This document shows, piece by piece, positions 44,094 through 63,778 of a stretch of DNA of 64,000 nt; positions within the stretch are counted from its first letter, which is position 1, and each line of letters starts with the position of its first letter. The DNA lies in NCBI GenBank assembly GCA_029775915.1, contig JARVKA010000005.1, positions 1 to 64,000 on the forward strand, read 5' to 3'. Made by a program: the position numbers and the translations under genes. This DNA comes from Nitrososphaeria archaeon (GTDB lineage: Archaea > Thermoproteota > Nitrososphaeria > Nitrososphaerales > JANXEG01). Below the pieces are notes generated by a model, which saw only the letters and a list, made by a program, of their open reading frames with translations, was not told where the DNA came from and made no database searches.

Positions 44094-44807
44094 TTATAAG
44101 GTTGCTAATAACTTTCCATAACCCTTTATTCGTTCTCTTACACCAAGCTCTTTAAGTGCTAGCCATAAAGATGCTGAGTTGCTAGATACTACTGGTTTAT
44201 TTAAATCAATTTCAAGTTTTTCAAGAATATCAAAGGTTCGAAAGTTTGTACAACTTATAAAGATACCGTCAGCTTCTGGTGTGTAAACATCCTTTGCCAA
44301 CTTATATGATACCCATGAAGGTTGCTTACCAATCTCTGTATTCTTTAAAATATTCAAACCTTTTATCTTCACAACTTTAAACCCACACTCCTCAAGAAAT
44401 AATTTCTCCCTTTCATTAAGCTCATTTATGTATGGTGTTGCTACAGCTACACTCTTTATCGATAACTCTTTTAAAGCCTCATTAACCGCAAAAGCGGTTG
44501 TTATCGTTTTTATACCAGTTCTCAACCTTATTTTTTCACTAAGCTCTTGCTCCCATTTAACACCTCCAATGAGTGAACCAGTTGTGCATCCATAAAGTAT
44601 GATATTAACATCAGCGGTAGCGAGATCATCCGCAGCTTTAAGTGCATCATTGACCATTTCTTTAAGACTCTCAATTGTAGCTTCAATTAATCTCATTCTT
44701 GCAACATGTATAGAAATGCCATCAGGTACAACCTTCCACAACTCACTCTCCATTGTAGTATTTGATGATGGTATTAACAATCCAATACGCCCACGCCAAC
44801 CATACAA
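44094..44807 (-). CDS. Maleate isomerase / Asp-Glu racemase superfamily protein
   Basis: A 237-residue protein of the maleate cis-trans isomerase/arylmalonate decarboxylase group. It has PSSNTTMESELW near the N-terminus and two cysteines in the equivalent catalytic positions: Cys in LYGCTTGSLIGG and Cys in GIFISCTNFRTFDI. These two-Cys enzymes isomerise maleate to fumarate or act on related acids. It is divergent from the fumarate-reductase-like gene at 44900, which supports a role with a C4 acid. Confidence 0.82.
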   Translation of the reverse strand: MYGWRGRIGLLIPSSNTTMESELWKVVPDGISIHVARMRLIEATIESLKEMVNDALKAADDLATADVNIILYGCTTGSLIGGVKWEQELSEKIRLRTGIKTITTAFAVNEALKELSIKSVAVATPYINELNEREKLFLEECGFKVVKIKGLNILKNTEIGKQPSWVSYKLAKDVYTPEADGIFISCTNFRTFDILEKLEIDLNKPVVSSNSASLWLALKELGVRERIKGYGKLLATL

Positions 44808-44899
44808 ATTTCATCACCTTAAATTTCAAAAATTTCTCTTTAGAAATTCTTAATAAATCTTATCTTTATAAATGGAATTATACGGAGAGGAAAAATGAA

Positions 44900-46657
44900 T
44901 TGATTGATAAAATCATCACAACAGATGTATTAATCATAGGTAGTGGAGGTGCTGGTGCTAGTGCTGCAATAAAAGCGAGCGAATGTACTGTGGATGTAAC
45001 TATTGTAACTAAAGGTCGTATGGGCCATTGTGGTGCAACGGTAACTGGAGAAGCAGATTGTGATGTAGATGGTAAAAGCCTTTGTGATTTTGGATTACCT
45101 GCAGATCCAAGAGATAATCAAGAAATATTCTTTGAAGATATAGTAAAAGGAGGAAAGTTTCTAAGTAATCAAAAGCTCATTGAAATCCATGTAAAAGAAG
45201 CGCCAGATCGATTAAAGGAATTGATCGAATGGGGTGTAAGAATTGAAAGGGTGGTAAAAGCATCAGGCCATACTTATAAGCGTGGCGCAATTATCCCCGG
45301 CAATACACTTATGCCAATTCTTAAAAGGGAGGTTGAAAAGCGAGGTGTGAATGTGATAGAGGATACGATGGTTACAAATCTTTTAACGAATGGAGGGAGG
45401 GTAGTTGGCGCTGTTGCTCTCGATATTCAAAATGGTGAATTTATAGTCTTTAAAGCTAAGGCTGTAATAATGGCTACGGGAGGTTGCATGGGAATTTATC
45501 CTTTTACTACAGCTCCAGAAGAATTAACTGGTGATGGTTATGCAATAGCATATCGTGCGGGTGTTGAGCTTATAGATATGGAATTCCCAATGTTTATACC
45601 TGGGGCTTTCGTATGGCCACCTGCATTAAAGGGTGTAATCGTTCCTTTCCTATTATCTGCTGCTGGAGAAGTGCATGGATGGTTACTTAATAAATTTGGT
45701 GAACGTTTCATGGAAAGATGGGCACCAAAGACTATGGAGCATAGCACTAGAGATATCGTATCGGTTGCGATGATGATGGAGATTTTAGAGGGTAGAGGGT
45801 CGCCACATGGTGGCGTTTATGTATCGTTGAAGCACTTACCCGATAATTTAATAGAAGATATTCCAAATTGGAGGCCTATGGTAAAGGATTGGAAGTATGG
45901 TGGATTCGATTTAAAAGAATTCTTCCCATTGGATAAGCTTAAGAAAGAGGCGATGGAAGCTGCTCCTTATTGCCATTTTACTAACGGTGGTATAAAGATT
46001 AATGAGAAATGTGAGACGAATTTATTAGGATTGTATGCAGCTGGTGAGGTTGCTGGTGGTATTCATGGTAGTAATAGACTCTCTGGTAATGCTTTTACAG
46101 CGATGTTAGTTTGGGGCGCTAGAGCTGGTAAGTTCGCATCTGAATATGCGCTTAAAACCGATTTTGGTGAAATCGATATTAATCAAGTTGAGGCTTTCAA
46201 AAATAAAATATTCAAAGTTTTTGAAAGAACTGAAGGTATTAAACCTATAGAGTTAAGAAAGCGAATACAAAAACTCGCTTGGGAGAATTGTGGAGTTATT
46301 AGGGATGAATCTGGGTTGAAATTTGCTATTAAAGAAATTGAGAGAATGAGAGATAATGAATTACCTCGCCTTTATTTAACTGTAAAGACTAAAGTGTATA
46401 ATAAAGAGTGGGTTGAGGCTTTACAAATTGATAATATGCTTTTAATACTCGAAATGATAGCACGTGCAGCTTTGCTAAGAACTGAAAGTCGTGGTGCACA
46501 TTATAGAAAAGATTATCCATACACTGATTACAAAAATTGGAGTAAAAATATCGTTATAAGAGAATTAAATGGTAAAATGGATTTGTATACTCAACCTGTG
46601 ATTGTAACAAAATTAAAGCCTCCAGAAAAAATTCTTCCATATGGGATGGTAGAGTAA
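44900..46657 (+). CDS. Fumarate reductase/succinate dehydrogenase-type flavoprotein
   Basis: A 585-residue FAD protein. It starts with the Rossmann motif VLIIGSGGAGASAAIKA; the FAD His-type motif, substrate-binding HFTNGGIKI (family HYTMGGI) and GLYAAGEVAGGIHGSNRLSG are typical of the flavoprotein subunit of fumarate reductase and its relatives (L-aspartate oxidase, adenylylsulfate reductase). The open frame goes upstream, but TTG 44900, nine bases after a GGAGAGG ribosome site, is the best start, as it does not overlap the divergent gene. The next gene is its electron-transfer partner. Substrate not proven. Confidence 0.87.
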   Translation: MIDKIITTDVLIIGSGGAGASAAIKASECTVDVTIVTKGRMGHCGATVTGEADCDVDGKSLCDFGLPADPRDNQEIFFEDIVKGGKFLSNQKLIEIHVKEAPDRLKELIEWGVRIERVVKASGHTYKRGAIIPGNTLMPILKREVEKRGVNVIEDTMVTNLLTNGGRVVGAVALDIQNGEFIVFKAKAVIMATGGCMGIYPFTTAPEELTGDGYAIAYRAGVELIDMEFPMFIPGAFVWPPALKGVIVPFLLSAAGEVHGWLLNKFGERFMERWAPKTMEHSTRDIVSVAMMMEILEGRGSPHGGVYVSLKHLPDNLIEDIPNWRPMVKDWKYGGFDLKEFFPLDKLKKEAMEAAPYCHFTNGGIKINEKCETNLLGLYAAGEVAGGIHGSNRLSGNAFTAMLVWGARAGKFASEYALKTDFGEIDINQVEAFKNKIFKVFERTEGIKPIELRKRIQKLAWENCGVIRDESGLKFAIKEIERMRDNELPRLYLTVKTKVYNKEWVEALQIDNMLLILEMIARAALLRTESRGAHYRKDYPYTDYKNWSKNIVIRELNGKMDLYTQPVIVTKLKPPEKILPYGMVE

Positions 46658-46986
46658 TGGCTGAGGTTAAAAAGATAATAACAGTAAAGATTTTTAGATT
46701 CAATCCAAAAGAGGGTCAAAATCCTAAATATCAAACTTATAAAATCCCACTTACAGAGGGTATGAGTGTTTTATCAATTCTTAAATACATATATGAGAAT
46801 GAAGATAGCAGTTTAGCATTTTACTACTCTTGCCGCATAGGCAAATGCAATGGATGTTACTTAATAGTGAATGGTAAGATAGTTAAAGCATGTACCACTA
46901 TAGTGCATGATGATATTACTATAGAACCATTACATGGTTTTAAGATTATTAGAGATTTAGTTGTGGATTTAAAAGTAAAAACTTAA
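46657..46986 (+). CDS. One-domain [2Fe-2S] iron-sulfur subunit (SdhB/FrdB N-terminal domain)
   Basis: A 109-residue protein that matches only the N-terminal ferredoxin half of succinate dehydrogenase/fumarate reductase B-subunits. The four ligands fit C-x4-C-x2-C-x11-C (YSCRIGKCNGC ... KACTT), and the end IEPLHGFKIIRDLVVDLKV corresponds to the linker before the missing second half with [4Fe-4S] and [3Fe-4S] clusters. It overlaps the flavoprotein gene by one base, so the two form a unit. No membrane anchor subunits follow, so the electron acceptor may be soluble. Confidence 0.85.
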   Translation: MAEVKKIITVKIFRFNPKEGQNPKYQTYKIPLTEGMSVLSILKYIYENEDSSLAFYYSCRIGKCNGCYLIVNGKIVKACTTIVHDDITIEPLHGFKIIRDLVVDLKVKT

Positions 46987-57950: not shown

Positions 57951-58044
57951 AAAGTTTTCAAATGAGTTTAATTTTAAAAGGTAAATTGAAAATTTTTATG
58001 TTAAAGTGCGCTTTCTTTTTTATTAAGATGTTTAAAGCACTATA

Positions 58045-59148
58045 TTAAATGTTAATTGGATATTTACCGTACTTCCTCGCTGCTTTTACCATAGCTAAAC
58101 AATTCTCTAACTTCGCATCAACTACCCAAGTATTGCTACTTGATAGTATATAACCTCCACCTGGAGCAGCACATTTAATAATTCGCTTTACTTCCTCTTC
58201 AACTTCATTTACACTCCCTCTTGGTAATAAATAACTAGTATCAACATTTCCCATTAACACAAGTTTATCACCATACTTCTTTTTCACTTCACATATATTC
58301 ATTCCAGCCACTGGTTCTAAAGAATGGATTCCATCAACGATTTCACTCAACTTTGGTAATAGTAAATTTATATTTCCATCACTATGTTTGATATACTTCA
58401 ACCCTTTGCTATGAGCAGTATCTACTTCTCTCTTTAAATTGGGCCAAATCATATCCTCATAATACTTTAAAGGCATTAGTGGACCTGATTTTTCAGCAAA
58501 GTCACCAGCACTCATTATAAAGTCTGCTCCAAGTTCTGCTGCAATCTTTATCTCTTCACAAGCATAATTCGTTATTCGAGAAATTAATCTTTTAACAGAC
58601 TTAGGATTTTCGCGTAACGCTTTAAAGAAATTTGTAATGCCTAAGCTATACCATGCAGTAGCAAATGGTGTATCCATTTTATGGTATACAGCCATTTCAC
58701 CCTTTACGATTTTTACTAAGTATTTCAAGCCTGGGATATCTTCTGGCATATTTGGAAAATTAGCCTCAAATTCCTCTATGGTAGTTCCATTAGCTCCTCC
58801 ACGTAAATAAGTCAATGCATTTGCATAGGGGTTATAGCCCCATATAGCTCCCCATTGATCTGCTACGGTACCATCGGGTAAGAGCTTGTATACCTTACCT
58901 TTAAACATACTATTGGTAGGTCTATGAAGTATAGCATCAAAACCAACCTTTTTGCAAAATTCTACATTCAACTCTACATAATGCTTTACATTCTCTTCAT
59001 AACCCATCTTCACCACTTCAGAAGGTTCTTGAATGATCTTTTTGCCCAATATATTCTCCATATGCACCGTTTCTACTTGATCTGTAATAGGAACCATATC
59101 TGGCTCTTCATGGTCAAGAGTTTTGAGAACCCTTTCTCTACTATTCAT
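58045..59148 (-). CDS. Uroporphyrinogen decarboxylase family protein (corrinoid methyltransferase-like)
   Basis: A 367-residue TIM-barrel protein of the URO-D superfamily that includes heme enzymes and the methylcobamide:CoM-type methyltransferases (MtaA, CmuA). It begins MNSRERVLKTLDHEEPD, typical of the methyltransferase-like branch; HSDGNINLLLPKL, GIHSLEPVAGMNI and LVLMGNVDTSYLLPRGS follow. No other heme gene is nearby, so a methyl-group or catabolic function with the tct operon is more likely. It is the last gene of the minus-strand unit, 39 bp behind tctA. Confidence 0.82.
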   Translation of the reverse strand: MNSRERVLKTLDHEEPDMVPITDQVETVHMENILGKKIIQEPSEVVKMGYEENVKHYVELNVEFCKKVGFDAILHRPTNSMFKGKVYKLLPDGTVADQWGAIWGYNPYANALTYLRGGANGTTIEEFEANFPNMPEDIPGLKYLVKIVKGEMAVYHKMDTPFATAWYSLGITNFFKALRENPKSVKRLISRITNYACEEIKIAAELGADFIMSAGDFAEKSGPLMPLKYYEDMIWPNLKREVDTAHSKGLKYIKHSDGNINLLLPKLSEIVDGIHSLEPVAGMNICEVKKKYGDKLVLMGNVDTSYLLPRGSVNEVEEEVKRIIKCAAPGGGYILSSSNTWVVDAKLENCLAMVKAARKYGKYPINI

Positions 59149-59187
59149 AAATTTCTAAAAATTTTAAGTAATGAAGTTTATTTAACT

Positions 59188-60684
59188 TTATTCTTTCGCT
59201 TCAATTATGGGGATTCTTTTTCCTCGAATTTTACTTAATAATGGTATTAATAGCAAAATGATTGTAATGGCTAGAATTGTTCCACTTATCGGTCTTGTGA
59301 AGAATATCATTGGATTTCCTCCTGAGACTAACAAGCTTCTACGAAGGTTCCTTTCAGTCAATTCGCCAAGTACCAAGCCCATAACTATTGGAGCGAGTGG
59401 CCATTTATACTCCTCTAATATATATCCAATAATACCAAAGATGAAAAGTATCCAAACATCGATTATATTATTTCTAACGGCGAATGTACCACCTATGCAA
59501 AGAATCAATATCAATGGTCCTAGAATACCTTTAGGGATTTGAAGCAATTTTACAAAGTATCGAATGAATATTGGTGAAATTAAGATTATAGATATATTAG
59601 CAAAAATCGCTCCAAAAATAACTGTATATGCAAATACTGGGAATTGTGAAAATAGGAGTGGGCCGGGTCTGAGCCCATGGAAGATAAGACCTCCAAGCAG
59701 GATAGCTGTAGTCGCACTACCGGGGATTCCAAAGGCGAATAAAGGTATCATAGCACCCATAGCTGCAGCATTATTCGCTGATTCAGGAGCAGCGATACCT
59801 TCAGGTATCCCAGTTCCAAACTTTTTATCCCTCCACTTACCGGAGGCTAAAGCGTAACTAACGAAAGCGGCTGTAGTTGCACCTATACCTGGAAGAATTC
59901 CAATACCCAAGCCTACTGGTATAGTTAAGGAGTAAATTGGGGAGACTTTTTTAATCGCTTTCAGCTTGGGTAAAACCGTTTTAACCTCCCCTGTAATCTT
60001 CATCATTCCAAGTGGATCTTGAACCATTCTGAAGACTTCAGATACGGCAAAAAGCCCTAAAACGACTGAAATAAAATCTATCCCTGCATTAAGGAATGGA
60101 ATACCGAATGAAAAGCGAGATATTCCAGTCATAGGGTCTAAGCCTATCGTTGAGAGCCAAAGTCCGAAAAATGCCCCGATGATGGCTTTTATTGGGTTAG
60201 CTACCGCTAACGCAGATACTGCACATAGTGCTAGGATAACAAGGGAAAAAGTCTCTGGTGATTCAAAGAGTAAAGCTGCCTCAGCCAATGGAGGGGTTAA
60301 AGTAAGTAAAACTAATGCACCTATTGTACCACCTAGGAATGAGCTGAATATACTCCAACCGAGCGCCTCATGAGCTAAGCCTTTCTTCGTCATTTCATAT
60401 CCATCGAATACCGTAGCAGATGCTTCTGGAGCACCTGGAACTCTAAATAAGATAGCGGTGATAGAACCTGAGAAGACCGATGTTGCGTAAATTGCTGATA
60501 GGAGGATAAATGCAGTATCAGGGGGCATTTTATATGTAAAGGGCATCATAACAGCGACCATCATTGTGCCACTAACCCCAGGAGTAGCTCCAGCGAACAT
60601 TCCTAATATTATTCCAATTAGTAATGTAGCAAAGTTTAATGGTGTAAACACATTCATTAAGCCTTCTATTATTCCTTCAAACAT
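59188..60684 (-). CDS. tctA: Tripartite tricarboxylate transporter, large membrane subunit TctA
   Basis: A 498-residue permease with about 12 helices. Family signatures: GMFAGATPGVSGTM near residue 30, FRVPGAPEASATVFDGYEM (about 83-101), GIGILPGIGATTAAFVSYAL and MGAMIPLFAFGIPGSATTAILLGG. ATG 60684 is preferred to the upstream frame start at 60735, as it is after the tctB stop and starts MFEGIIEGLMNV. Takes up carboxylates (citrate-like or aromatic) with TctB and the binding protein TctC. Confidence 0.93.
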   Translation of the reverse strand: MFEGIIEGLMNVFTPLNFATLLIGIILGMFAGATPGVSGTMMVAVMMPFTYKMPPDTAFILLSAIYATSVFSGSITAILFRVPGAPEASATVFDGYEMTKKGLAHEALGWSIFSSFLGGTIGALVLLTLTPPLAEAALLFESPETFSLVILALCAVSALAVANPIKAIIGAFFGLWLSTIGLDPMTGISRFSFGIPFLNAGIDFISVVLGLFAVSEVFRMVQDPLGMMKITGEVKTVLPKLKAIKKVSPIYSLTIPVGLGIGILPGIGATTAAFVSYALASGKWRDKKFGTGIPEGIAAPESANNAAAMGAMIPLFAFGIPGSATTAILLGGLIFHGLRPGPLLFSQFPVFAYTVIFGAIFANISIILISPIFIRYFVKLLQIPKGILGPLILILCIGGTFAVRNNIIDVWILFIFGIIGYILEEYKWPLAPIVMGLVLGELTERNLRRSLLVSGGNPMIFFTRPISGTILAITIILLLIPLLSKIRGKRIPIIEAKE

Positions 60685-60697
60685 TTTTACACACCTA

Positions 60698-61168
60698 TCA
60701 ATAAAATATGAGGTTAATCTCCCTAAAAATACCAATACCTCTTGGTATAGGTACTAACATTAATATTGGGAATAGTATTATTAGCACTAATGAAATCCCT
60801 ATTGTAGCAAAAAGTAACCATTTCCAATTTTTAATCCCTATTGCATACATGTATGTTGCAAGAGCTATTGGTGTTAAAGGTATTAAGCCCATTATTTCAA
60901 GAAGGTAAATGTAGCTCAATAGGAAGAGTATTGAGAATATAACATTCTTTGTAATCCTTAACCTTGATTTAATCTCTTTTTTAATGCTATTGTAAATGAG
61001 TAAGATTGAGAGAAGCATGATGGTACCAAGTAAAAATTCTGGGAAGACTTCTGGGCCTATCTCCATAGTAACAGGCCCGGTAATTTGAGTTGAAAGATAG
61101 AAAAAGTATATGGAAAAAATAAAAAAGGAGAGGGAGATTATGAGTTCCCCTTTATTCACGTTCTTCAT
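60698..61168 (-). CDS. tctB: Tripartite tricarboxylate transporter, small membrane subunit TctB
   Basis: A 156-residue protein with four hydrophobic helices, diagnostic of TctB only by context and by GPEVFPEFLLGTIMLLSI, the P-x-x-FP motif of the family. Overlaps tctC by 4 bp and precedes tctA by 13 bp, so the three are translationally linked. Confidence 0.88.
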   Translation of the reverse strand: MKNVNKGELIISLSFFIFSIYFFYLSTQITGPVTMEIGPEVFPEFLLGTIMLLSILLIYNSIKKEIKSRLRITKNVIFSILFLLSYIYLLEIMGLIPLTPIALATYMYAIGIKNWKWLLFATIGISLVLIILFPILMLVPIPRGIGIFREINLIFY

Positions 61169-62310
61169 TTAATGAAGCCGAGCTCCTTTAACATAGCTGT
61201 GAAAAATTCTGCTTCTTTCTTTACAAATTCAGTAAATTCCTTTCTTCCCATCCAACCTGGCCTTAAATGTAAGAATTGATCTCTTTCAACTTTTTTATAC
61301 TCTGGAGTTTGATAAGCAGCATAAAATACTTTTTCTAAATAATCTACAATATCCTCAGGTACGCCTTTTGCTAAATGAAAGCTTCTCCACCTCCCTATAG
61401 TAATATTCCAACCTTTCTCCACGGTTGTAGGAACATCCTTTAACAAAGGCTCATCTACTCTTTTTTCTACGAAGAGAATCATCGGCTTCATTCTTTTACC
61501 CTCAATGAGTGATAGTACTACGCCGGGCTCTTCGAACATCACATCAATCTCACCACTAAGTAATGCTTTATGTGCATCTGGCGCTTTATCATAAGGGACA
61601 TAAGTAGCTTTAATACCCATAGCTTTTGCTAATGCCATAGTAGCTACATCATCCATACCTCCAGAACCAGTCCCACCTATCAATACCTTATTATCTTTTG
61701 CATACTTTACAAACTCATCAACATCTTTGAACCTTTTATCATCAGGCCTTATAAGCCATGCTCCAAGATCATGTTGAACTCTACAAAGGTGTATGTAATC
61801 ATCCAGCTTATTCTTATTCCTCCCTAATGGTATGTTAATCGCTATATCTATCCCGCCAGCTAGAATTGTGTAGCCATCTGCTGGTTGCTTGAGTAAAGCA
61901 TCTTCAGCTATAGATGCTGCTGCACCTGGTAAATAGGTATACACAAATGGCTGACCAAGAATTTGTGAAGCAGGTCCTCCTATTCCTCTTGCAAATAAAT
62001 CTGTCCCTCCTCCAGGGCCATAACCTATCAAAACTGTGATTGGTCTTTCAGGATACTTAGGGTGCTTCTCTGGCTTTGGAATGAGTGTAGGCGGCGTAGG
62101 TGTTGGCGTGGGTGTAGGAGTGGGAGTAGGTGTTGGAGTTACGGTTACAGTCACAGTTGTGGTAACAGTCTTTTCTACTACCTTTTCAACTACTTTAGGT
62201 GGTAAAGATGCATAATATGCAGCTACTCCTCCTCCAAAAACTATAGCTCCTACAATAAATGATCCAATATACTTAAGGTATGCTCTTCTATCAATCTTTT
62301 CAGCTGACAT
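61165..62310 (-). CDS. tctC: Tripartite tricarboxylate transporter, solute-binding protein TctC
   Basis: A 381-residue binding protein. The N-terminus is a Tat-like leader (IDRRAYLKYIGSFIVG) with a hydrophobic segment and a long Val/Thr stretch ending in a Thr-Pro linker; the Bug/TctC domain begins with PERPITVLIGYGPGGGTDLFAR, typical of the family. The leader is nearly the same as in the TAXI protein at 26152 and the partial protein at 1-177. A TATA-like element 25 nt upstream supports the ATG at 62310 and an extra internal promoter. Confidence 0.93.
   Translation of the reverse strand: MSAEKIDRRAYLKYIGSFIVGAIVFGGGVAAYYASLPPKVVEKVVEKTVTTTVTVTVTPTPTPTPTPTPTPTPPTLIPKPEKHPKYPERPITVLIGYGPGGGTDLFARGIGGPASQILGQPFVYTYLPGAAASIAEDALLKQPADGYTILAGGIDIAINIPLGRNKNKLDDYIHLCRVQHDLGAWLIRPDDKRFKDVDEFVKYAKDNKVLIGGTGSGGMDDVATMALAKAMGIKATYVPYDKAPDAHKALLSGEIDVMFEEPGVVLSLIEGKRMKPMILFVEKRVDEPLLKDVPTTVEKGWNITIGRWRSFHLAKGVPEDIVDYLEKVFYAAYQTPEYKKVERDQFLHLRPGWMGRKEFTEFVKKEAEFFTAMLKELGFIK
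62090..62140 (-). repeat. Thr-Pro linker simple repeat in tctC
   Basis: A run of degenerate Thr-Pro codons that links the membrane-near leader to the binding domain. Codon choice differs from the repeat at 26332-26394, so the two have not been copied recently. Confidence 0.85.
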
Positions 62311-62330
62311 ACTAATTTATAACCCTATTC

Positions 62331-62340
62331 AATTTAATAA
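62331..62340 (-). promoter_or_regulatory. TATA-like element upstream of tctC
   Basis: AATTTAATAA on the plus strand (TTATTAAATT on the minus strand) is centred about 25 nt before the tctC ATG, in the 45-bp gap behind the upstream gene. It may give tctCBA an internal promoter, which would allow extra binding-protein expression. Confidence 0.35.
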
Positions 62341-62355
62341 GCTTTTTCGACCGAG

Positions 62356-63000
62356 TTATTTTTTTACTAGCTTTTCAATAAGCTCTTTTGCTCGCTCTAC
62401 ATTGAAGATTCCACACGTGCAGCATTTTGCTAAAGTTCTTGCCGCTTCATCAGAGGATATGATACCTAACTTTACATCCTTAGCTAGCTTTTTTACGAGA
62501 TTCTTAGAGATTAACCCATGGCCACACATCGTTTGTATATCGAGAATTTCAGGCTCCTCGGGTAAAAGATCTGTTTTGCCCCAAATCCCTAATGATACCA
62601 TAACGGTGTGGGGTGTTAATCCGATTTCACGTGCTGCATTAAGGGTTTCATTATAAAGACCACTTACTACAACAGACATACCAAGATTCGCATCTTTTAA
62701 ATCTTTTAAAACCATCTTCACAGTTTCAATATCCTTATACACTCCATGAAAGATGCTGGTATCTGTAGCCTTTTCTACGATCTTTTCAAAGTTATGATCC
62801 TTTGTCCATATACTTCCAGTCTTCATATCACCCATATTTATAGGATTATAACGGGCTAAAATCTTCAATGCTTCTACAAGCTTTGGTGCAGCTCCTGCAT
62901 CATTAAATCCTCTACATGACATTACTAACACTACATAATCTTTCTTTAAAGACTCTATTTCACCAGTTCTATGAAGAGTATGAGTCATTCCATTCACCAC
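62356..63000 (-). CDS. Unrecognised Cys-containing protein in the tct operon
   Basis: A 214-residue soluble protein whose family I do not recognise. Features that look functional: Cys29 in VLVMSCRGFNDAG, Cys159 in MCGHGLIS and Cys193, Cys194 and Cys196 in CCTCGIFN; these could bind a metal or cluster. An Asn-Met-Gly segment (PINMGDMKTGSI) and VSGLYNETLNAA are other conserved-looking parts. It overlaps the ferredoxin-type gene before it by 7 bp and precedes tctC by 45 bp. Its role is probably in the metabolism of the acid imported by TctCBA; inference from location. Confidence 0.75.
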   Translation of the reverse strand: MVNGMTHTLHRTGEIESLKKDYVVLVMSCRGFNDAGAAPKLVEALKILARYNPINMGDMKTGSIWTKDHNFEKIVEKATDTSIFHGVYKDIETVKMVLKDLKDANLGMSVVVSGLYNETLNAAREIGLTPHTVMVSLGIWGKTDLLPEEPEILDIQTMCGHGLISKNLVKKLAKDVKLGIISSDEAARTLAKCCTCGIFNVERAKELIEKLVKK

Positions 63001-63734
63001 CTCACCTTATCAGGCACCCTTATTGATGCTAACGGTCTACCTAAGCCCATATTGATCTTCATATTCGGCTTATAAGGTATGCCTAGTCTATCAAGAATGT
63101 TAAATATGGGTATGGTACCATCTACCCTTACAGTGCTCGCCAAACCCACCGAAACTACTGTATCAATCTCTTTTACCACTTCTCTTAATGTATTTAAGAC
63201 AACTTCAGTCTTTTCTATAGGGAATTTGCATTCAATAATGGGCTGGTAAGCCCTTACTTCTCTTAATCGATCGTCTTTTAATCTTCCCGTAGTCCAATCG
63301 AAAAGCATGTTAAGAGGATTCTCCTTCTCAAACTCTACGCCCAACTTCACTAAAGCCATAAAGACCTTCTCAACATCCTTAAAGGATGTTGATATTGCTG
63401 GCCTTCCAAAATCTAACGCGAGACCCACTTCGCCAGGCTTCACTCTACCCGTAACTTCATTCGTTTTTACCTCCTCCGTTCCTCTTCCAGCCATCCTCGT
63501 TGTAGCCCAATCCTTTGTTGGTACTGCAAAGTTCCACATCAAATCTCTAGGAAAAACCATTTCTGCAGGTTTAAAAGCGGATACAGGGCATTGAAAGATC
63601 TTGTAGCAAACCCAGCATTCTATGCACTTCTCTTGATCTACAGTAGCTTTTTTATCCCCAATCATTTTAATAGCACCAACAGGGCACCAAGGGATACATG
63701 AGGCGCAACCTACACATCGATCAGTTATTTCCAA
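62994..63734 (-). CDS. Ferredoxin-domain protein, unknown C-terminal domain, first gene of tct operon
   Basis: A 246-residue protein. The N-terminal 55 residues form a 2x[4Fe-4S] ferredoxin: C7, C10, C13, C17 (CVGCASCIPWCP) and C37, C40, C43, C49 (CIECWVCYKIFQCP), the second with an unusual C-x5-C end. The rest is a domain I do not recognise, with RGTEEVKTNEVTGRVKPG, DFGRPAISTSFKDVEKVF and NMGLGRPLASIRVP. Translation starts at TTG 63734 after a GGTGAT ribosome site (63742-63747). It could be an electron-transfer reductase partner of the next gene. Confidence 0.78.
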   Translation of the reverse strand: MEITDRCVGCASCIPWCPVGAIKMIGDKKATVDQEKCIECWVCYKIFQCPVSAFKPAEMVFPRDLMWNFAVPTKDWATTRMAGRGTEEVKTNEVTGRVKPGEVGLALDFGRPAISTSFKDVEKVFMALVKLGVEFEKENPLNMLFDWTTGRLKDDRLREVRAYQPIIECKFPIEKTEVVLNTLREVVKEIDTVVSVGLASTVRVDGTIPIFNILDRLGIPYKPNMKINMGLGRPLASIRVPDKVRW

Positions 63735-63741
63735 TTAATTA

Positions 63742-63778
63742 ATCACCAGCTTATAGCGGAGCTGGATTTTAAATAAAC
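63742..63778 (-). promoter_or_regulatory. Promoter and ribosome site of the tct operon
   Basis: A TATA-like ATTTAAAATCC-type element lies at 63766-63778 (minus strand) and a GGTGAT ribosome site at 63742-63747, spaced 7 nt from the TTG start. The transcript would have a short leader with the ribosome site, unlike the leaderless binding-protein genes. Confidence 0.45.

Follow-up and report, generated by a model that had tools for sequence, protein, structure and literature searches.

A conserved pair of predicted iron–sulfur proteins largely outside known families accompanies carboxylate transporters in bacteria and archaea

Two adjacent genes of an archaeal operon, here called P1 and P2, form a conserved, co-evolving pair that is linked to carboxylate transporters and to redox genes and that matches no known family or fold beyond the ferredoxin half of P1. 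Our best explanation, to which we give a probability of about one half, is that the pair is an iron–sulfur oxidoreductase of an undescribed family, each protein being one of its two subunits, and that it acts on imported (hydroxy)carboxylates; that the pair is an enzyme of some kind is likely. The word new is used here in the sense that P2 and the unnamed domain of P1 have no family or fold match in the searched libraries, and not in the sense of new chemistry demonstrated.

The P1-P2 genes head a probable six-gene operon

The window, a stretch of 64,000 nucleotides from a Nitrososphaeria archaeon (host assembly of 1.47 Mb, 99% complete, with proteins of archaeal appearance), carries six minus-strand genes in the order P1, P2, tctC, tctB, tctA and a gene of the URO-D superfamily (Table 1). 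This order had been proposed in the original prediction, and all the open reading frames are indeed present, with Pfam backing TctC, TctB, TctA, the URO-D protein and the ferredoxin half of P1. TctC, TctB and TctA, encoded in one operon, scored 82, 48.5 and 446.8 bits against Pfam cut-offs of 27, 29.1 and 28.9, and TctC has a hydrophobic N-terminal anchor and a TP-rich linker.

Table 1. Features of the operon region, in window coordinates.
Feature	Position	Strand	Description
P1	62994-63734	minus	246 aa; 2[4Fe-4S] ferredoxin N-terminus followed by an unnamed domain of about 190 aa
P2	62356-62988	minus	210 aa counted from the conserved ATG; the GTG-started ORF is 62356-63000, 214 aa
TctC solute-binding protein	61165-62310	minus	PF03401, 6.9e-23; PDB relatives
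TctB small membrane subunit	60698-61168	minus	PF07331, 1.3e-12
TctA large membrane subunit	59188-60684 (probable start ATG 60684; ORF to TTG 60735)	minus	PF01970, 8.6e-134
URO-D superfamily protein, corrinoid-methyltransferase-like	58045-59148	minus	PF01208 match; 78% paralogue elsewhere in the genome
Inverted repeat, 7-bp arms	63746-63765	no strand	11 bp upstream of P1; terminator-like scan

The intergenic gaps are 5, 45, −4, 13 and about 39 nt from P1 to the URO-D gene, and a single transcript for the six genes is therefore likely. The 4-bp overlap of tctC and tctB is real. A 7-bp overlap had also been claimed for P1 and P2, which needs the upstream GTG; P2 probably starts at the ATG at 62988 (MTHTLHR), the start conserved in the family and the point to which the profile match on the window also reaches. 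For tctA, the ATG 13 nt past tctB is probably the start, rather than the TTG at 60735. The operon had been drawn to end at 57996 and has to be shortened, the stop of the URO-D gene being at 58045.

A malic enzyme gene is divergent from P1 upstream (L086:1010-2344 on G000:C6, from about 64010 onward), and none was found adjoining P1-P2 at other loci. The inverted repeat upstream of P1 might possibly be an operator, a weak candidate from a scan whose matches were few above chance. No structured RNA was found in the region. Elsewhere in the window (44094-46986), a gene for a protein of the arylmalonate decarboxylase family is divergent from genes for a fumarate-reductase-type flavoprotein and a small cysteine-bearing (2Fe-2S-like) protein, possibly a second acid-handling locus.

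P1 and P2 co-evolve as one widespread module

Searching 84,980 genomes gave at least 528 relatives of P1 in bacteria and archaea, some of which may match by the ferredoxin half alone; the best 79 loci were retrieved, and these match P1 along the whole protein. In at least 87 of 97 cases the P2 gene came no more than 300 bp after that of P1, mostly at 25 bp or less or overlapping. In several of the remaining cases a profile search placed P2 as expected, for example at L024 and L075, where the gene caller had missed it, and several seemingly unpaired P1 genes are explained by long antisense ORFs of this simple gene caller. The distance matrices of P1 and P2 over 119 pairs were correlated with r=0.76, as compared with 0.06 for the best of 1,000 shuffles. 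P1 and P2 are thus one co-evolving module.

The carriers belong to the Bathyarchaeota, Lokiarchaeota, Sulfolobales, Dehalococcoidia, Clostridia, Syntrophales and Synergistales, together with a few gut bacteria, groups that are mostly anaerobic. The function of the pair is testable now in carriers available in culture (Desulfosporosinus lacus, Desulfotruncus arcticus, Mesosutterella multiformis and Dakarella massiliensis). P2 is present in just 4 of 398 genomes of a sample of the host's phylum and in 1 of 300 genomes of its class, that of the host itself, and is lacking in the host's congener; horizontal gain by this archaeon is therefore likely. No viral or plasmid carriage of P1-P2 was found.

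Several genomes hold 4 to 10 copies of P2 in different operons, as expected of substrate-specific enzymes. The clostridial genome G400 (L090-L097), with ten copies across tct, TRAP and AOR operons, is the best single organism for mapping substrates. A short form of P2 (139-140 aa) that lacks the cysteine half is conserved in several Desulfosporosinus/Gracilibacter genomes, where a second P1 and a permease of the AbrB type adjoin it (L024:14238-14657, L042:17884-18303, L050 and L074:14246-14668). We rejected a split P2 in Desulfosporosinus, the fragments being this short form and separate degenerate copies.

P1 and P2 keep cysteine motifs outside known families

P1 matches ferredoxin families across its first 55 residues or so only (Fer4_10 over cut-off), with eight cysteines in two CxxCxxCxnC motifs (C7, C10, C13, C17 and C37, C40, C43, C49) that are kept in 116 to 119 of 119 relatives. 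The remaining 190 residues or so had no counterpart in Pfam even at E=10; this domain has invariant GRGTEE..K and GRP motifs, and G83-R84-G85-T86, E88, K90, G110-R111-P112 and P140 are kept over the 119 pairs. The AlphaFold model of P1, made from an alignment of 83 sequences, is confident (pLDDT 88.8), and a Foldseek search against the PDB gave no match to the C-terminal domain at E≤0.001, all matches being to the ferredoxin half or to weak ferredoxin-like domains.

The model of P2 (67 sequences; pLDDT 93.4, pTM 0.90) is also confident and consists of an alpha/beta N-terminal half and a helical C-terminal half that holds the invariant cysteines. Numbered by the GTG-started ORF of 214 residues, R11, G107, G141, C159, G160, H161 and C194 are identical in 119 of 119 sequences. 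Two of the five cysteines of P2, C159 and C194, are among these, and C196 is present in all 118 readable rows, so that the motifs read C159-G160-H161 and C194-x-C196. The intact cysteine motifs of the original prediction were confirmed. C159, C194 and C196 are a candidate three-cysteine [4Fe-4S] site, as judged from their invariance.

The original prediction had also called both proteins unrecognised, and they remain so: neither P2 nor the C-terminal domain of P1 falls under a family of Pfam or NCBIfam, and P2 and 66 relatives gave no match above chance in either library. HAD_2, at E=0.0064, was under cut-off and was seen in 9 of 67 members only; we judged it to be a chance match. Foldseek found nothing for the P2 model in the PDB at E≤0.001 (best 0.017); the weak matches are ferredoxin-like alpha/beta domains, and the alpha/beta parts of P1 and P2 may share this common topology. 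P2 and the P1 domain showed no homology to each other, and neither protein matched the AFOR domains (PF02730/PF01314). A possible relation to 6-hydroxynicotinate reductase gave no NCBIfam match and no convincing plasmid relative.

Three invariant cysteines together with invariant histidine and arginine residues are also what the site-differentiated cluster of a hydro-lyase needs. P1-P2 might accordingly be a [4Fe-4S] enzyme that works on hydroxy acids without redox chemistry, as a lyase, dehydratase or racemase. The P2 cluster would then be a Lewis acid, like that of aconitase or fumarase, and the P1 ferredoxin would be structural or would keep the cluster reduced. We consider this possible, if on the unlikely side, and return to it below.

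The pair accompanies several importers

TctA was encoded within 5 kb of at least 33 of 112 P2 loci (48 genomes), where 2.7 were expected from random placement given the TctA count of each genome; none of 200,000 simulations gave more than 13. The order P1-P2-tctCBA was seen in the window and at L080, whose TctA is the closest to that of the window (54%) within an identical gene order; the TctC proteins of L076 and L080 share 42% identity with the TctC of the window. Other loci have tctC-P1-P2-tctBA (L042, L050 and L074) or dctPQM-P1-P2 (L012, L022 and L056). P1-P2 is a constant companion of several importers. The expected recurrence of the pair with tctCBA was therefore found, far above chance, while that with URO-D was seen in only 2 of 79 loci; the pair does recur beside transport genes, and the family searches above gave it no known unrelated function. 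On comparison of the 79 loci, URO-D, MetE, hydantoinase and malic enzyme were rejected as conserved partners.

The recurrent hydroxy-acid genes nearby, named by our reading of cluster sequences and not from curated matches, are HIBDH, PdxA, DapA, LarA, the malate/lactate dehydrogenase type and glycerate kinase, and IlvD and IPM-dehydratase-like genes are further neighbours read in this way; many operons consist of P1-P2 and a transporter only. A non-redox lyase would suit both the hydroxy-acid catabolism to which LarA, PdxA, DapA, HIBDH, IlvD and the IPM-dehydratase-like neighbours point and the operons in which the pair stands with a transporter alone. The pair could also be a redox sensor or a regulatory or accessory device of the transporters and not a catabolic enzyme, in keeping with its place within or beside tct, TRAP, ABC and MFS genes and with the variety of the other enzymes. 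However, the pair is also found with sets of AOR and CODH-like genes that lack transporters, neither P1 nor P2 matches a DNA-binding family, and separate GntR/sigma-54 regulators are frequent; we regard such a device as quite improbable. A ferredoxin-linked reaction on an imported carboxylate, as proposed in the original prediction, fits the neighbouring genes.

The pair changes places with tungsten enzymes in redox operons

A second type of operon combines P1-P2 with a HycB-like ferredoxin, a CODH homologue and a PadH-like FAD protein (L062, L070, L076, L105, L119-L121, L140 and L152). In the same genomes, other loci (L164-L167) hold the same HycB/CODH-like/FAD set with the tungsten-containing aldehyde oxidoreductase AOR instead of P1-P2. 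At L043:6871-8112, P2 is fused in frame to a HycB/CooF-like polyferredoxin, with an FAD oxidoreductase gene upstream, a single case in one metagenome-assembled genome. By the exchange with AOR in sister operons and by the fusion, the pair thus takes the position of a catalytic oxidoreductase. Together with the strict conservation of all eight ferredoxin cysteines, both point to electron transfer, which argues against a non-redox lyase. More tentatively, P1-P2 may be a new class of iron–sulfur oxidoreductase with a new P2 fold, one that stands in for tungsten enzymes on electron-transfer modules common to the two and through which anaerobic bacteria and archaea bring many carboxylates into metabolism.

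Within 5 kb of the 119 pairs we counted Tct at 48, AOR at 22, TRAP at 14 and CODH-like genes at 10. Tct and AOR were nearly exclusive, with both present at only 2 pairs. If the pair served to mature or activate tungsten or CODH-like enzymes, its AOR and CODH-like neighbours would be accounted for; however, this would leave the many pairs near Tct, just 2 of which are near AOR. Of the genes listed in these genomes, moreover, most of those for AOR and all of those for canonical CODH sit away from the pair. We consider this role highly improbable.

The CODH homologues (about 320-575 aa; L062:13825-15546, L119-L121, L105, L151, L164-L168, L172 and L173) lie in operons with HycB-like and FAD genes and either P1-P2 or AOR. 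All four B-cluster cysteines are present in 18 of 18 copies. The C-cluster cysteine, histidine and lysine residues examined were intact only in L070, that is in 1 of 13 full-length pair-linked copies (counting L168, whose short contig did not show the pair); those of L105 and L151 keep the C-cluster cysteines only and the other 10 have lost them. The homologues have the look of CODH scaffolds that were converted to subunits for electron transfer. A term search of the available text of three CODH surveys (PMC6344411, PMC13056359 and PMC13240472) returned no mention of tricarboxylate transporters, and the available part of a tungsten-enzyme survey (PMC13328260) describes no such pair.

The URO-D gene is an addition of this lineage

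The URO-D protein scored 67.6 bits, far below the cut-off of 235.4 for TIGR01463, the NCBIfam model of MtaA/CmuA, and reads H-S-D where MtaA has its H-x-C zinc motif. Below 1e-3 it has a single solved relative, CdmB, a zinc-free corrinoid methyltransferase (PMC13222342). A paralogue with 78% identity starts 2 nt past a gene for a B12-binding protein (L193:8727-10489 on G000:C4 for the two), both standing behind a branched-chain-type ABC importer. This makes methyl transfer a plausible role for the window protein, for which the corrinoid protein would be supplied by this second locus. The window operon has no corrinoid gene. Of the methyltransferase-like assignment in the original prediction, the corrinoid methyltransferase role therefore stays plausible, from the paralogue and from CdmB, while the MtaA/CmuA cut-offs were missed.

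A URO-D homologue is near the pair in so few of the 79 loci that the gene is an addition in this lineage and not part of the P1-P2 module; one conserved pathway of all six genes, as had been supposed, is not supported. In one of these loci (L040), a related URO-D gene and a corrinoid gene adjoin a TRAP transporter, with the pair some 7 kb away. This arrangement, the paralogue next to a B12-binding protein and the tight gene order of the window would suit a single pathway in which one methoxylated or aromatic acid is taken up, stripped of a methyl group and reduced, but the rarity of URO-D beside the pair and the lack of a corrinoid gene in the operon make it unlikely, and nothing indicates an aromatic or methoxylated ligand.

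A proposed mechanism

For an iron–sulfur oxidoreductase, the third cluster, the open site, the electron flow and the substrate class are what we infer. TctCBA would import a small carboxylate, probably hydroxylated or substituted. The two [4Fe-4S] clusters of P1 would relay electrons of low potential between the ferredoxin of the cell and P2. A third cluster, held by C159, C194 and C196 of P2, would have one iron left open; this iron and the invariant histidine and arginine residues would handle the carboxylate. Reduction is our guess for the direction of the reaction, and in this archaeon the URO-D-like corrinoid methyltransferase may remove a methyl group from the same substrate. Against an oxidoreductase speak the transporter-only operons, with no dedicated redox partner besides P1, the persistence of the short P2 beside a second P1, and the neighbouring enzymes, too varied for a single substrate to emerge.

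Hundreds of anaerobes carry the pair, frequently more than once per genome and in association with carboxylate uptake, yet it has no name, no family model and no match among solved folds. Should it be an enzyme, present metabolic maps lack a step by which anaerobes of sediments and the gut bring organic acids into metabolism.

Comparison with known systems

The transporter of the window is a TctCBA system in all three subunits, and the catabolic genes next to it presumably deal with the carboxylate that it brings in; it differs in that the operon carries P1-P2, which to our knowledge is in no described TTT system. Among methyltransferases, the URO-D protein shares PF01208 with CdmB, MtoB, OdmB, MtaA and CmuA, and its paralogue has a corrinoid protein as neighbour, but it departs from them by its low MtaA/CmuA score, its H-S-D motif and an operon without a corrinoid gene. 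P2 resembles the three-cysteine [4Fe-4S] hydro-lyases (aconitase, class I fumarase and L-tartrate dehydratase) and the IspG/IspH-type reductases in its three invariant cysteines, histidine and arginine, but it has no sequence match to them and no fold match in the PDB below E=0.001. Some P1-P2 operons, like the Ni-CODH/CooF/FNOR units, combine a CODH homologue with a ferredoxin similar to CooF and an FAD protein similar to PadH, but most of the pair-linked homologues lack the C-cluster ligands. The pair is like WOR/AOR with its WorS/HycB-like subunit by context, replacing AOR in the HycB/CODH-like/FAD operons, and is probably also ferredoxin-linked and anaerobic; in contrast, P1 and P2 match no AOR family and are far smaller.
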